Source: a virus. From it: DNA of 56,913 nucleotides. Made by a program: the position numbers and the translations under genes. Positions 3,824 to 16,727 of the stretch are shown one piece after another. The notes beneath the pieces are model-generated. The model worked only from the letters and a program-made list of their open reading frames with translations, made no database searches and was not told where the DNA came from. The DNA lies in IMG/VR virus record IMGVR_UViG_3300043548_000643, positions 1-56,913 of that record; one strand, given 5' to 3'. Position 1 is the first letter of the stretch, and each line of letters begins with the position of its first letter.

Positions 3824-4269
3824 TATTTTTTAGAAGCCCTGTCCATCTCTCTTCCGTAAGCCTGTAGTTTATCTAGTCTTCTCATGTTCATAAGGGCAGG
3901 TATTCCCTTTTTCTGTTTATCAATAAATCCTTTAAATATAGAATCTGACTTGGGATCTTCGTGCTTCTTGATGTACTTTTTAATTTTATCTAATGTATTG
4001 GCTGTTTTGTATAGCTCTTCAGCAATCTTTACAGCTTCAACTATTTCATTTTCAGAGTAACCATATTCAGCTGCTCTTTTCATGAAGCCTTCAATATAAG
4101 CTTTCTTCTCAGGTAAGTCGCTATGCTTAGTTTTAGCAAAGTCCCTCAGTTGCTTTTCAGTCATACTATCAGCAATTTCTTGAACTTTAGAGCCAAAACG
4201 ACCCTTGCCTCTTTTAGAGGCAAGAGCCATCCCCATGAGTCTTTGTTGAGCTTCGCTTTTTGCGGGCAT
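3823..4269 (-). CDS. DUF3008 protein carrying the shared AYIEGF module internally
   Basis: Residues 1-53 match the DUF3008 pattern seen in phage proteins (SEAQQRLMGMALASKRGKG, then ADSMTEKQLRDFAKTKH). Immediately after, residues ~55-90 contain KAYIEGFMKRAAEYGYSENE, the module that sits at the very N-terminus of five neighbouring proteins. The module is therefore mobile between proteins. The remaining ~55 residues are Lys-rich and helical. It is followed after 1 nt by another module-bearing gene. Function unknown; the cluster suggests a virion-packaged protein. Confidence 0.65.
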   Translation of the reverse strand: MPAKSEAQQRLMGMALASKRGKGRFGSKVQEIADSMTEKQLRDFAKTKHSDLPEKKAYIEGFMKRAAEYGYSENEIVEAVKIAEELYKTANTLDKIKKYIKKHEDPKSDSIFKGFIDKQKKGIPALMNMRRLDKLQAYGREMDRASKK

Positions 4270-4270
4270 A

Positions 4271-4768
4271 CTACCACCCTTGTTCTTGCTTTGTTTGATT
4301 GATCAGCTCATCCAGCTTTTGGTTGTAGCGTCTAACTCCTAAGCCTGCACCTAGAGCTCTTCCTCCAAGTCTACCTGAACTAACAGCACTTTGTATTGCT
4401 TCAGGGTCAGTTTGGCCTAGTAAATGAGATAGTCCATAGCCTGCAGCCCCTCCAGCGATGTCTCCCAGGAATGTGCCTCCAGAGATATTAGCTGTTCTGC
4501 TTGGAGAGCCCTCTTCGCTTGTGAGATCTTGATAAGCGTTATATGCAATAGGAGCCATCCCACCAGCTTCACCACCAACACTATCAGGAGCAACTCTACC
4601 CATCATCATAGCTCCTAGCATGTTCATCATTGGGTTAGCCTTCTGTTGTTCGAGGTTATAGACGTTTCTTTCGGCACGCTTCAGTAGCGCAACAGCCTCA
4701 GCTTCATTGAAGCCGTATTCACTTGCTCTCTTAACGAATCCTTCGATGTATGCTTGCTCGTTAGTCAT
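4271..4768 (-). CDS. Tagged protein with Gly/Ala-rich hydrophobic segment
   Basis: This 165-residue protein begins with the shared N-terminal module (QAYIEGFVKRASEYGFNEAE, residues 5-24). A Met-rich patch follows (about 45-56), then a Gly/Ala-rich stretch (about 96-148) that resembles glycine-zipper membrane-inserting regions, and a Lys/Gln-rich tail. It abuts tagged genes on both sides with 1-nt gaps, so all are cotranscribed. The glycine-zipper reading is only composition-based. Confidence 0.55.
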   Translation of the reverse strand: MTNEQAYIEGFVKRASEYGFNEAEAVALLKRAERNVYNLEQQKANPMMNMLGAMMMGRVAPDSVGGEAGGMAPIAYNAYQDLTSEEGSPSRTANISGGTFLGDIAGGAAGYGLSHLLGQTDPEAIQSAVSSGRLGGRALGAGLGVRRYNQKLDELINQTKQEQGW

Positions 4769-5448: not shown

Positions 5449-6051
5449 TTATCTAGCACCAGCAATACCTAGAGTCTGATTTCCTCCAAATGTATTATTT
5501 ACAGCTGGAAGATTGAGTATGGGGCTATCTGCTCCAGGACCGACAGGAGTTCTTTGATACCCTGCTGCCCTTAAGCTTGGACCATAGAAAGTGTGCGCCG
5601 CTTGCTCTGCTCCTTGGCCTAACGATTCTGCAGCTCCTGAGATTCCCTGTCTTAAAGCACTGCCAGCCCCTGAAAAACCTTGTCTTAAAGCGCTACCAGC
5701 TCCTGAAAAGCCTTGCCCCAGTGCCCTACCTGTCTGTCCAACCGTATTCATAGTATCGCGCACTCCTTGGCCTACAGTATTTACAGCGCCCTCAAGCTTC
5801 TGCCCCATATTGGAAGCTAAATTATGTGCTCCCTGGTTCAAGGCCCTACCTGCCCCCATAACCATGTCCTTACCTCTATTAAAGGTATTTCCTACAGCTT
5901 GTACACCGCTGTCGGCCTTTGCTCCAAGCCTTTGACCTAAATCTGCAAAAGAAAAAGCTCTTTTGTATAATTCAATAGCCTCAGCTTCATTATAGCCGTA
6001 TTCACTTGCTCTCTTTACGAATCCGTTGATGTATGCTTGTTGTGTGTTCAT
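5449..6051 (-). CDS. Tagged protein with amphipathic GQGFSGAGSAL repeats
   Basis: Residues 4-31 carry the shared module (QAYINGFVKRASEYGYNEAE). Residues ~45-140 consist of about seven imperfect 11-residue repeats (examples ALRQGFSGAGS, TVGQGVRDTMN, NLASNMGQKLEG). This period is typical of amphipathic helices that bind membranes or line channels. The C-terminus is Gly/Asn/Pro-rich. A TATATT -10-like box and an AGAAG ribosome-binding site precede the ATG. The terminator at 5392-5427 closes the transcript. Role unknown; membrane interaction during genome delivery would be a testable guess. Confidence 0.55.
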   Translation of the reverse strand: MNTQQAYINGFVKRASEYGYNEAEAIELYKRAFSFADLGQRLGAKADSGVQAVGNTFNRGKDMVMGAGRALNQGAHNLASNMGQKLEGAVNTVGQGVRDTMNTVGQTGRALGQGFSGAGSALRQGFSGAGSALRQGISGAAESLGQGAEQAAHTFYGPSLRAAGYQRTPVGPGADSPILNLPAVNNTFGGNQTLGIAGAR

Positions 6052-7901: not shown

Positions 7902-8642
7902 TTATTTAAACCTTTTTGCAAAAGAGTCGTTAAAAGATTTTTGCCATTCTTTTAAATCAAGATTTTTAACTGTCGCAAAAAAATCGTTTTCTTTTTCGTA
8001 CTCGGACAAATCTGGTATATTCTGAATGGGAGGTCTAAAAGATTTTCCCCATTTAGGGTTGTATTTATTCATATGCTCTTTGAGCATCTTATTGTAGAGA
8101 TACTCTTGAGATGCTGGAAAATCTGGTGAGTTTATGTCTTCCGTGTAAGCATCTACAAATTTATTGCCATCATATTTTTGTGGACGCGGTAAGGGCTTAT
8201 TACGGTACTGGTTTGCGCTTGCAAGATCTCTGAAATGACCACTTGCCATATCTGTAGAGTCAAAGGCGTCTTGCTTGACAGAAGAATCAGGGGGGTCAAA
8301 CCCAAACACAGGTTTTTTACCCATAATATCTCCAAGCCCTTGCACCCACTTGTCTTTCGGCGTCATGCTAGATAAAGGAGCATTTTTCAAAATACTTAAA
8401 TCTTTCTTGTTCGGTGTATATCCTGGTGCACTAGATGCAGGCGCAACACTAGGCGATTGAGTAGTTGTAGCAGAATTAAAGTTCTGCTGCTTAGTTGCAC
8501 CAGCAGGCCACATAGGATCTTGCTGAGCTACCACATTTTGAGCGTTAGCTCTCTTCCACAGCGTGATAGCTTCATTTTCACTGTAGCCATAGTCAGCCGC
8601 CCTCTTTACAAACCCATTGATGTATGCTCGCTGTGTGGTCAT
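7902..8642 (-). CDS. Tagged protein of unknown function, 246 residues
   Basis: The shared module occupies residues 4-31 (RAYINGFVKRAADYGYSENE, then LWKRA). A disordered Gln/Ala/Ser/Pro linker follows to about residue 80. The C-terminal ~110 residues look folded, with aromatic and charged helices (NKMLKEHMNKYNPKWGKSF, EYEKENDFFATVKNLDLKEW). The layout (tag, flexible linker, cargo domain) is what would be expected of a targeted or packaged protein. It ends 1 nt before DUF1501, so both are likely on one mRNA. Confidence 0.5.
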   Translation of the reverse strand: MTTQRAYINGFVKRAADYGYSENEAITLWKRANAQNVVAQQDPMWPAGATKQQNFNSATTTQSPSVAPASSAPGYTPNKKDLSILKNAPLSSMTPKDKWVQGLGDIMGKKPVFGFDPPDSSVKQDAFDSTDMASGHFRDLASANQYRNKPLPRPQKYDGNKFVDAYTEDINSPDFPASQEYLYNKMLKEHMNKYNPKWGKSFRPPIQNIPDLSEYEKENDFFATVKNLDLKEWQKSFNDSFAKRFK

Positions 8643-8728: not shown

Positions 8729-9253
8729 TTACTTTCTTCCAGGAGCTGCTGTGGCAGGGGCATTACCCATAACTCCACCGTAAGCATTAGCTGGACTCTT
8801 TCTTGTTCCCTGCATGTTCGGGTTGTTGATACCTAAAAACCCCATGATCTTCTCATTCATGGTAGGATCAGCACTTGCTGCTGCAGAGCCCCCACCAATA
8901 ACAGCAGAGCTAGGGGTTGGTGTAGGTGCCTGAGGCTTGACTGAAGGTGCAAGTGCCTGAGGCTTGACTGAAGGTGCAGCCGCACCTCCACGGTTAAAAA
9001 GACTAGACATGATTTGCGTGTCTGGTGTGCCTGGAGCTGTTAACGGATTAAACCCGTCCGCAGCTTGTTTACGCTGTCTGAGCTTTTTTAGATCAGAACC
9101 TTCAATCTTGCCGTCTTTATCTACATCAAGCTTATGCTGATCTCCTTTGAGCTCAGATGCTCTCTTAAAGATCTCTACAGCCTCATGTTGACTGAAGCCA
9201 TACTCAGCTGCGCGCTTAACGAATCCTTCAATATATGCTTGTTCTAAGTTCAT
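8729..9253 (-). CDS. Tagged protein with an EF-hand/dockerin-like calcium loop
   Basis: The shared module spans residues 4-32 (QAYIEGFVKRAAEYGFSQHE). Right after it, residues ~40-52 (DVDKDGKIEGSD) match the calcium-binding loop of EF-hands and dockerins: Asp at positions 1, 3 and 5 and an acidic residue at 12. The rest is Pro/Ala/Gly-rich and includes a direct duplication of APSVKPQA. Only one loop is present, so calcium binding alone would be weak unless it dimerises. It is a likely virion or cargo protein by context. Confidence 0.5.
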   Translation of the reverse strand: MNLEQAYIEGFVKRAAEYGFSQHEAVEIFKRASELKGDQHKLDVDKDGKIEGSDLKKLRQRKQAADGFNPLTAPGTPDTQIMSSLFNRGGAAAPSVKPQALAPSVKPQAPTPTPSSAVIGGGSAAASADPTMNEKIMGFLGINNPNMQGTRKSPANAYGGVMGNAPATAAPGRK

Positions 9254-9294: not shown

Positions 9295-10305
9295 TTAGCT
9301 AAAAAAGAAGAGTAATGCAAGCGTAATAAGTATTGTGAGTACGATGATAAACGGTAGAGCTGGCTTCTTTTCTTCCACAACAACCACAGGTTCTGGTGCA
9401 GGAGGCACAACAGGCTCTACAACCTCAATAACCGGAGGCTCAACAACTGGCTCGACCACAGGTTCAGGCGTAGGCTCAATTACCGGTTCTGGCTTGGGCT
9501 CTTCAACAGGGTCACTCTCATACTCATCGCTAGTCTCTGTAAGTCTGACAGTCCAGAAGTCAAAGCTGTCGTTGCTCATGATATAGCTCAATGGAATATA
9601 GCAATATCCCTTGTCTCCCCAGTTTGTTCCCCAGCTATTCTGCACAATCAGATATTCTTGCCCATTGTAATTTTTAATATACCCTACAGCGAGCATGCAG
9701 TGAGCGCCTACAAACTTCTCTGACTCTCTGTCAGGAGCGAGCATAAACCCTCCCATGAGCTCCATGAAAGGATCGAAGAAAGACGCGTATAAGTTTAATC
9801 CAAACGCAAAAGGATAACCGTCGTTTAGACAGTTGAGCCACTCATCTTTGTTAAAATCGTCTATTTTAAGATATTCTAAAGCCTGATGCTTCTCAGCAAT
9901 CTTCCATGCCTCTTCAGGCGGATTTTCATTATAGTTTTCAATTATATAGGGCCATACCCTCTCCATACTCACACCATCTCTAGCTAAGCTTTTAAGAGCA
10001 TCGCGTATAGCTGCCCCAGAGTCAGTCAATATGGGGGCTACAGCTTTGCGAGTAGCATAGTATGTGAACAGTGGGCTAGGCATCCAGCGAACCATGCTGT
10101 GCTTTCTGCGAACAAAGTCGAACATCGAGGTAGCGGCAAAAGCCGTACACGAACCTATATTTCCTTGGGCTCTAGGAACGCTGCAGTCTTTTCTAAGGTC
10201 TATATTGTTTAGCTCGGTCCAGTGTGTAAGCTTTGGTTTATACGGTCTGTCCCTAGGATCTTCCACTTGTTTATTGCAGCCATGCTTAAAATCTTCAATA
10301 TTCAT
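9295..10305 (-). CDS. Papain-like (C1A) cysteine peptidase with C-terminal membrane anchor
   Basis: This is a 336-residue protein. The papain triad is clear: QGNIGSCTAF (oxyanion Gln47, catalytic Cys53), GAHCMLAVGY (His202) and QNSWGTNWGDKGY (Asn223). After the ~250-residue catalytic domain comes a linker dominated by Pro, Glu and Val (about 260-312). A single hydrophobic helix ends the protein (about 314-336), giving a tail anchor. There is no N-terminal signal or obvious propeptide. C1A peptidases are uncommon in phages; prohead proteases belong to other clans. Possible roles are cleavage of tagged virion proteins encoded next door, or action in the infected host envelope. Family call sure, role open. 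Confidence 0.85.
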   Translation of the reverse strand: MNIEDFKHGCNKQVEDPRDRPYKPKLTHWTELNNIDLRKDCSVPRAQGNIGSCTAFAATSMFDFVRRKHSMVRWMPSPLFTYYATRKAVAPILTDSGAAIRDALKSLARDGVSMERVWPYIIENYNENPPEEAWKIAEKHQALEYLKIDDFNKDEWLNCLNDGYPFAFGLNLYASFFDPFMELMGGFMLAPDRESEKFVGAHCMLAVGYIKNYNGQEYLIVQNSWGTNWGDKGYCYIPLSYIMSNDSFDFWTVRLTETSDEYESDPVEEPKPEPVIEPTPEPVVEPVVEPPVIEVVEPVVPPAPEPVVVVEEKKPALPFIIVLTILITLALLFFFS

Positions 10306-12043: not shown

Positions 12044-12358
12044 TTATTTAAAAACAATCGCCTTTGCGGCGATTATGGCTGCGGGAACTATATCAAATCC
12101 CCGAGCTGGTATGCTGATAGCCTCATCCTCTGAACCACCCGCCAACTCTTTGGCGGTGACACTAAGGAATTTGGTGGCTATTAACGGTAATAGATCCGCA
12201 CCATCTCTTTTAAAGGAGAGGCACACACCCCCCTCTAGGGAAGGGTGTCCGAAAATAATGGTGGGGTTTGTTGCCCCTCTCCACCATTTCCAGACCCACC
12301 CTCTGAAGCTGACCATACCGTTAAGCATGTCCATGATTCTTTTCATTTCAGTATCCAT
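12044..12358 (-). CDS. Small protein of unknown function
   Basis: This 104-residue protein was preferred over the opposite-strand frame because it has its own promoter (12454-12462) and terminator (11994-12024) on this strand. It has a Trp-rich patch (GWVWKWWRG, about 20-28) and an Ala/Ile-rich C-terminus (FDIVPAAIIAAKAIVFK) that might associate with membrane. The ~90-nt leader can form a 7-bp hairpin (CCTCTAC/GTAGAGG). Confidence 0.5.
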   Translation of the reverse strand: MDTEMKRIMDMLNGMVSFRGWVWKWWRGATNPTIIFGHPSLEGGVCLSFKRDGADLLPLIATKFLSVTAKELAGGSEDEAISIPARGFDIVPAAIIAAKAIVFK

Positions 12359-12445
12359 AATTCAAAAACTTAAACCTCTACTAGGTTAAAAACAATTTAG
12401 GGTAGAGGCCCACAACTGTTAAATCAAAAGCTAGTCAGCCTCTGA

Positions 12446-12464
12446 TTCAATTTACTATACCACT
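12446..12464 (-). promoter_or_regulatory. Extended -10 promoter for the 12044-12358 gene
   Basis: The minus strand TGGTATAGTAAATTGA has extended -10 TGG + TATAGT (12454-12459) and matches the family seen at 14525, 18073 and 28108 (TGGTATAATATATTG). Confidence 0.55.
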
Positions 12465-12484
12465 AACTATGCAGTTTATCTGAG

Positions 12485-12532
12485 GGGGGGGTACCTAATA
12501 GCTAAAAAAAGAGAGGGATCGAGCCTCTCTGG
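12485..12532 (-). terminator. Terminator with T-arm-like loop and GGTACC/C-run linker
   Basis: The minus strand has stem AGAGAGG/CCTCTCT with 7-nt loop CTCGATC, then T7, AGCTATTA, GGTACC and a run of eight C. The stem-loop closely mimics a tRNA T-arm. Upstream sequence (12533-12565) also looks D-arm-like (GCGGTAGAGTGGTTAGGC), so this may be a tRNA relic turned terminator. It ends the 12581-12808 gene. Confidence 0.65.
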
Positions 12533-12580
12533 ACTATAGCTAGTCAGCCTAACCACTCTACCGCAGGTTACGCGCTTTTG

Positions 12581-12808
12581 TTAATCTTCTTCCTTGTGTA
12601 GGTCCTCATCAAGGACATACACATTGATTCCTGGGCTCAGGGTGTCGTCGTTCCAGAAGGTTTTTCCTTCCAGATCGATACACATCCCACCAGGGTGGGA
12701 GAACTCCCAATCCGGAATAACGACTCGAGAATGGTCGTCATTATACAACACTAATTCTGGCTCCTCTACAGAGGCCGCAAAATCAGGCCAATTTAATACT
12801 AAGTGCAT
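12581..12808 (-). CDS. Small acidic protein of unknown function
   Basis: This 75-residue acidic protein (many Asp/Glu, PGGMCIDLEGKTFWNDDTL) has no recognised family. A TATAGA -10-like box lies at 12820-12825, giving a leader of only ~15 nt. It is terminated by the hairpin at 12510-12530, so it forms its own transcription unit. Confidence 0.5.
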   Translation of the reverse strand: MHLVLNWPDFAASVEEPELVLYNDDHSRVVIPDWEFSHPGGMCIDLEGKTFWNDDTLSPGINVYVLDEDLHKEED

Positions 12809-15933: not shown

Positions 15934-16003
15934 AATACTGATATTTACTGCGTTACTGAAATGGTGCACCAGGCAGGACTCGAACCTGCGACCAACCACT
16001 TAG

Positions 16004-16602
16004 CTTCCTACTCTATATTACTATAGCCAACTCATGTTGTTGTAGGCTGGACTATGTCTTCACCTTTACAGGTGGAATGCGTATAGTCTCTACGGAACCC
16101 CTGTGACTGGGTTTCCTCGGCGTTGTCCATAAACCTAGTATAGACTTCTTGGATATTCGCCGAAATAGCATTCTCCACTTCTACGGTTTTTACACCCAAC
16201 TGTATATTTCTAGAGAGCTTTCCTCTGCATGCTTTCGAACAACAAGTATACTTGCCGTTTTTACTCAGATGTGTTTGGTTGTGTACTCTATCAAATATAA
16301 CTCCACAATTTGGACATTTTAGTTTTACCCATTTACGTCCATGCTCGTGTGCGTGTAAGGTAGCGTGCTCATTTAAAATCATAACTTCTAGATTCTCTAT
16401 ACGATTATCTTTTTTATTATGGTTTTTATGATGCACAACTTCCGATTTATCGAGAATACGGTTCAGGTGATTTTCAACTACGATGCGATGCTCTAGCACA
16501 TATCCATGCTTGGTAGCATTAGGATGTGCTTTAACTTTCATATAGTTGTATTCTCCTTTACTGATCACTTTCTCGATTTTCCACATAGAAGGCTCCTAAC
16601 TG
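16004..16602 (-). ncRNA. Group I self-splicing intron in tRNA-Arg
   Basis: The intron is 599 nt. P1 can form between exon CUU and intron C-AGUUA-GGAG, giving the diagnostic U-G pair at the 5' splice site. Near the 3' end GACTATACGC (16079-16088) and AAGACATAGTCC (16049-16060) form P7, with a CACC/GGTG P8 hairpin between, and a GGAAACCC...GGGGTTCC helix precedes them. These are classic group I core elements. It encloses an HNH gene whose frame runs into the core. Confidence 0.8.
16032..16586 (-). CDS. Intron-encoded HNH homing endonuclease
   Basis: This 184-residue protein starts 16 nt inside the intron. An HNH core lies at residues ~26-80 (GYVLEHRIVVENHLNRIL, SEVVHHKNHNKKDNRIENLE, EHATLHAHEH). 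It is followed by a zinc knuckle (LKCPNCGVIF...CCSKACRGK, about 88-125). The last ~50 residues are translated from the ribozyme core (GEDIVQP is the P7 strand), so they probably add nothing to nuclease function. Presumably cleaves intronless tRNA-Arg alleles. Confidence 0.85.
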   Translation of the reverse strand: MWKIEKVISKGEYNYMKVKAHPNATKHGYVLEHRIVVENHLNRILDKSEVVHHKNHNKKDNRIENLEVMILNEHATLHAHEHGRKWVKLKCPNCGVIFDRVHNQTHLSKNGKYTCCSKACRGKLSRNIQLGVKTVEVENAISANIQEVYTRFMDNAEETQSQGFRRDYTHSTCKGEDIVQPTTT

Positions 16603-16639
16603 AAGGCAGTTGCTCTATCCAACTGAGCTACTGGTGCGT

Positions 16640-16727
16640 TGGTGGCCTAGGCGGGACTTGAACCCGCACGGGGAGTGCTCCCCAACAGATTTTAAGTCTG
16701 TCGTGTCTGCCATTTCACCACAGGGCC
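16640..16727 (-). tRNA. tRNA-Leu(UAA)
   Basis: This class II tRNA is 88 nt with encoded CCA. It has D-arm GGTGAAATGGCAGAC, anticodon arm ACAGA-CTTAAAA-TCTGT (UAA), a long variable arm (GGGGAGCACTCCCC) and T-arm GCGGG-TTCAAGT-CCCGC. The acceptor stem GGCCCTG/CTAGGCC has two mismatches (C-A, U-U) at pairs 5 and 6. Its 3' end is 2 nt from tRNA-Arg, so they are probably one precursor. Confidence 0.85.

Follow-up and report, generated by a model that had tools for sequence, protein, structure and literature searches.

What interrupts the anticodon of a phage tRNA-Arg, and could a working tRNA still be made from the two halves? The DNA analyzed here, termed the window, is the whole 56,913-nt stretch of IMG/VR record IMGVR_UViG_3300043548_000643, in which the tRNA-Arg(UCU) gene is split in the middle of the anticodon by a 599-nt insert. 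Run at this locus in its default setting, without introns, ARAGORN reports tRNA-Leu(UAA) at 16640–16727 and tRNA-Met only, and the tRNA-Arg is missed. With introns allowed, it places tRNA-Arg(TCT) at 16637..15962 with an intron of 599 nt. The joined halves form a standard 77-nt tRNA with a canonical cloverleaf and an encoded CCA, in agreement with the first-pass annotation of this DNA, which had claimed that the halves give a complete tRNA only if 599 nt are removed; the 2-nt gap to tRNA-Leu(UAA) is also as it described (16637 versus 16640). Of the arginine codons in the window ORFs counted, 58% are AGA or AGG, so a working tRNA-Arg would suit the phage. Near the window tRNAs, no clear promoter or terminator was seen. 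The features of the locus are collected in Table 1.

The insert has the core of a group I intron. A search with the Rfam covariance model, which the first-pass annotation had proposed as a check, finds a group I core: RF00028 aligns over its full length (model positions 1–253) at 16251..16028 on the minus strand, with 36.8 bits and an E-value of 1.1e-7 in a search of 801 nt or 1.9e-9 in a search of the whole record. The score is below the Rfam gathering score of 50 bits, a curated cut-off and not a biological feature. Rejection of the insert by this threshold alone was overturned by rescoring of the region and by a held-out covariance model (R2), built from the cores of 13 phage relatives with the window excluded. 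The held-out model gives the window 177 bits (E=3.4e-54) at 16180..16004, with the end of the match precisely on the predicted terminal G, and the window core follows it over all 182 positions with no pair broken.

The boundaries of the insert are also those of a group I intron. As had been claimed, the window has the U(-1)-G pair of P1, the terminal G and the two strands of P7 (GACUAU/AUAGUC). Within P1, CUU|C pairs with GGAG, an arrangement kept in all 14 phage introns. The terminal G in the window is G16004, and the relatives' introns end in G as well, a G having been a requirement in choosing their 3' boundaries. In the curated tRNA-Arg(UCU) joins of the relatives, every break falls after U34; ARAGORN misassigns some of these joined tRNAs (as Gln, Ser or Stop), and the curated joins are Arg(UCU). 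The window splice boundary carries a 1-nt ambiguity, as C begins both the intron and the 3' exon. The ambiguity is absent in relatives whose introns start with U, and the U-G and terminal-G rules also settle it. The original claim was that a group I intron splits this phage tRNA-Arg(UCU) after U34. It is borne out by the covariance models, and likewise by the covariation, by introns at the same site in 14 relatives and by an allele that lacks the intron (the last three described below). The sequence evidence thus supports this identification, with splicing as the expected consequence. P7.1/P7.2 and P5abc are absent from the phage intron alignments; this absence and the tRNA setting make subgroup IC3 a likely assignment. 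Assignment to class IA, suggested by a T4-like P7, was dropped because P7.1/P7.2 are absent.

Table 1. Features of the interrupted tRNA-Arg(UCU) locus, in window coordinates.
Feature	Position	Strand	Basis
tRNA-Leu(UAA), intronless, 2 nt upstream of tRNA-Arg	16640..16727	-	tRNA search
tRNA-Arg(UCU) 5' half, ends U33-U34	16603..16637	-	ARAGORN intron mode
tRNA-Arg(UCU) 3' half, from C35, encoded CCA	15962..16003	-	ARAGORN intron mode
Group I intron, 599 nt, between U34 and C35, terminal G16004	16004..16602	-	RF00028; held-out model; boundaries in relatives
Internal guide UUAGGAG, P1/P10 with anticodon loop CUUCUAA	16593..16599	-	Sole such intron 7-mer; conserved GGAG and spacing
P2 5' strand CUUCUAUG, holds AUG of HNH ORF	16584..16591	-	Covarying helix
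P2 3' strand CGUAGAAG	16178..16185	-	Covarying helix
HNH endonuclease ORF, 184 aa, in P2 loop and on through catalytic core	16032..16586	-	PF13392; PHROG HNH families; dN/dS
Catalytic core P3-P9 and 3' end	16004..16180	-	Held-out covariance model
P3 5' strand GAAUGC, partner 16075-16080	16168..16173	-	Double changes in 4/6 pairs
P3 3' strand GCAUUC	16075..16080	-	Covariation
P4 (UCGGCG/CGCCGA) around P5	16117..16163	-	Covariation
P7 5' strand GACUAU, guanosine-binding helix	16083..16088	-	Compensatory change in L003, L005, L014
P7 3' strand AUAGUC	16050..16055	-	Covariation
P8 hairpin	16061..16074	-	Covariation
P9 domain, outer stem and two hairpins	16007..16046	-	P9b covaries in 5/5 pairs

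Covariation was analyzed in an alignment of 14 phage cores. P2, P3, P4, P5, P6, P7, P8 and P9b all covary across these introns. The named structure, including the P3/P7 pseudoknot, is paired in 99.2% of cells versus 35–43% when slid; drawing the structure on the window sequence favors this percentage, and does not favor the double changes, which are found at 17 pairs of the pseudoknotted core. The core covariation score is 0.374, compared with 0.144 for shuffled and at most 0.071 for slid controls. In P7, GACUAU/AUAGUC is replaced by GACUUU/AAAGUC in three relatives (L003, L005 and L014). P2, an 8-bp helix in the window, covaries as CUUCUAUG/CGUAGAAG, GUUUAUGUG/CACAUAAAC and CUUCGUGUG/CACACGAAG.

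The intron carries an ORF that was missing from the first-pass annotation of 15962–16637. It matches PF13392 HNH_3 (8e-9) and PHROG HNH families, and the H and N residues of the motif are invariant in ten relatives. A search of its profile against the PDB matched no solved homing endonuclease. For the N-terminal part, dN is 0.33 and dS about 2.5 between the window and L003, with dS saturated against the other relatives; the ORF is under purifying selection. The ORF starts inside P2, and in the window its reading frame continues past P7 through the core. Translation of the 3' end, which overlaps the catalytic core, could therefore disturb folding. The annotated phages GX15bay, SOVA965 and Javan74 also have HNH relatives, none of which lies within a tRNA intron.

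We asked whether an HNH gene could simply have inserted alone into the tRNA gene, with the likeness to a group I intron arising by chance. The ORF fills 555 of the 599 intron nt, and free-standing HNH genes do occur near phage tRNAs, as in SOVA965. However, the covariation of the pseudoknotted core and the 177-bit match to the held-out model refute this explanation, and the core is kept in relatives without the HNH gene; we assign it a negligible probability. The same relatives bear on the possibility that the element is a decayed intron or tRNA pseudogene, which no longer splices or yields a tRNA and in which selection acts on the HNH gene alone. Two G-U pairs in the anticodon stem of the spliced tRNA-Arg and the Rfam score under gathering are in line with decay. 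In contrast, the window core fits the relatives' model without a broken pair, and in L005, L014 and L010 (introns of 300–305 nt; three of the 14 same-site contigs) the HNH frame is lost while the core and tRNA halves are intact, indicating that the RNA is kept without the HNH gene. Decay is very unlikely.

Upstream of the ORF, the guide sequence appears to have a second role. UUAGGAG is the only intron 7-mer that pairs with the entire loop CUUCUAA; the frequency of such 7-mers in the window is 0.41 per kb. Its AGGAG lies 6 nt before the AUG of the HNH ORF, and likely doubles as the Shine-Dalgarno sequence of the ORF, an overlap also missing from the first-pass annotation. In 12 of the 14 introns, an AUG or GUG follows the guide GGAG at a distance of 5 or 6 nt; the ORFs of L013 and L019 start elsewhere. 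As the exon CUU demands a GGAG-like guide, the insertion site by itself may account for the overlap. As a tentative and rather doubtful idea, P1 and P2 would mask the ribosome site in the unspliced precursor, and excision of the intron would free the guide, such that the endonuclease is made mainly from excised intron. If true, mobility would be coupled to the success of tRNA splicing, exploiting the GGAG guide demanded by the CUUCUAA loop.

Relatives were found first by the ORF of the insert and then by DNA patterns from the 3' core. The same-site tRNA-Arg(UCU) intron is present in 14 IMG/VR contigs besides the window (L002, L003, L005, L007, L009–L016, L018 and L019), one of which, L002, is from the same species as the window. 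L008 also has the tRNA-Arg(UCU) version, with its core cut off by the contig end. Related introns are found in other phage tRNAs, namely Leu(UAA), Leu(UAG), Lys(UUU) and Ile(UAU), with at most two cores per record. The tRNA-Leu(UAA) of the window is intronless; several other phages have related introns in theirs. Short introns are seen in the tRNA-Lys(UUU) (193 nt) and tRNA-Arg(UCU) (175 nt) of LR756508.1 (L047), a 484-kb phage, at about 12080–12730. A 210-nt intron was also observed in the tRNA-Ile(UAU) of LR745208.1 (L048), a 484–485 kb phage, at about 167800–168090; both records are unannotated. In the INPHARED collection, no record covers most of the window intron.

The phage covariance model also matches bacterial tRNA introns. 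Same-site tRNA-Arg(UCU) introns in bacterial metagenome-assembled genomes (MAGs) contain a PD-(D/E)XK ORF (L031, and similarly L030), a LAGLIDADG ORF (L037) or no ORF (L028); the ORF of L031 matches PF11645 PDDEXK_5 at 1e-25. A related core is present in 8 of 149 genomes of the phylum of L029. Some of the MAG contigs could be phage themselves. The element belongs to a recurrent phage family with bacterial cousins at the same site, instead of being a lone oddity, a point that the first-pass annotation had missed. Further related introns were observed in Acidobacteria and Methylococcales MAGs (L020, L022–L025, L027, L034, L036 and L038–L042); their best join is tRNA-Lys(CUU), and several have a PD-(D/E)XK-like ORF.

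The bacterial introns at this site could mean that intron and tRNA were acquired together from a bacterial host and that the intron has been passively inherited, immobile among phages. Two observations argue against this. First, an HNH ORF in P2 is common to the phage copies, but the bacterial same-site introns examined have an ORF of the PD-(D/E)XK or LAGLIDADG type, or none. Second, a syntenic phage relative, L054, lacks the intron. This 14-kb contig of a related phage has a flank 88% identical to the window over 848 nt and contains, in order, tRNA-Met, the same genes, tRNA-Leu(UAA), an intronless tRNA-Arg(UCU) at 1903–1979 and the same downstream gene. Viral contigs searched for the exact joined exons gave none, and the L054 site was reached via the neighboring gene. 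The tRNA-Arg exons of the window and L054 diverge more than the flanks. This empty site fits gain of the intron by homing, or clean loss. Passive inheritance is unlikely.

We suggest that the insert is a mobile group I intron in phage tRNA-Arg(UCU), located after U34, that would splice itself and home through its HNH enzyme; we put the probability of this reading, with splicing, cutting and homing inferred, at roughly 0.9. In the tRNA transcript, the guide UUAGGAG would pair with the anticodon loop, and the intron would excise itself by two guanosine-started transesterifications. Ligation of the halves would yield a working tRNA-Arg reading AGA and AGG. The HNH enzyme encoded in the P2 loop would cut or nick intronless tRNA-Arg(UCU) alleles of co-infecting phages, its putative targets, and repair of the cut allele would copy the intron in.

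Group I introns in tRNA genes are known from Anabaena tRNA-Leu(UAA), Azoarcus tRNA-Ile(CAU) and Agrobacterium tRNA-Arg(CCU), which belong to subgroup IC3. The window intron is like these bacterial and plastid tRNA introns in its insertion in the anticodon loop, its P1/P10 on anticodon-loop bases and its compact core without P7.1/P7.2 or P5abc; it differs in its host, a phage tRNA-Arg(UCU), and in the HNH ORF in P2. HNH endonucleases are also encoded by group I introns of phages, among them those of SPO1 (I-HmuI), Bastille (I-BasI) and Twort. The window intron shares with them the HNH ORF of a mobile phage intron, mobility being inferred here, but they interrupt protein genes and not a tRNA gene. 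I-Ssp6803I, a PD-(D/E)XK endonuclease of the cyanobacterial tRNA-fMet intron, likewise combines a tRNA intron with a homing enzyme, and the bacterial same-site L031 has the PDDEXK_5 type, in contrast to the HNH in the P2 loop of the phage versions.

According to Hausner et al. (2014; PMC3984707, which has I-BasI in its reference list), every phage group I intron known at that time lay in a protein-coding gene, although phages have many tRNAs; a study of crAss-like phages describes core phage protein genes that contain group I introns (PMC7886860). The main text of the huge-phage paper leaves introns unmentioned (PMC7162821). For Vibrio phage pVa5, a 2.5-kb insert in a ‘tRNA-Stop’ was presented as the first case of an intron in a phage tRNA, and its authors note that it may be an artefact; unlike for the window intron, the accessible text reports no group I core in this tRNA (PMC5746245). 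No credible earlier account of a group I intron in a phage tRNA came up in the open-access literature, and one may exist elsewhere. The window locus and its relatives indicate that phage tRNA introns exist and recur. A suggested cause of their being missed is that tRNA finders without intron settings skip them, as default ARAGORN did here; phage tRNA inventories from default scans are probably undercounts. The family points to introns common to phages and bacteria, with endonucleases of different types at a single anticodon position, and offers a small test case of splicing and endonuclease translation sharing one sequence.

Several other features were observed in the relatives. The tRNA-Leu(UAA) intron of L017 (IMGVR_UViG_3300028591_000432, 8371–8612) has an insert of ~110 nt in P9 with a cloverleaf-like fold and a sequence resembling a degenerate tRNA-Leu, so that a tRNA-like element sits inside a tRNA intron. 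A permuted tmRNA (RF04321, 83.6 bits) is located near the intron locus in L013, at 4069–4392, and an ARAGORN tmRNA call in L003 is flagged as permuted.

Elsewhere in the window, four minus-strand ORFs (4271–4768, 5449–6051, 7902–8642 and 8729–9253) share the N-terminal module AYIxGFVKRAxxYGxxExEAxxLxKRA and are otherwise unlike; the module is possibly a targeting sequence or cleaved leader. The minus-strand ORF at 9295–10305 matches a PHROG peptidase family (3e-10), and looks papain-like by eye; its tail is rich in proline, and a hydrophobic stretch lies at the C terminus. At 26–505 on the plus strand, a Leu/Ser-rich ORF of short repeats probably reads the opposite strand of a repeat array close to the end of the contig.
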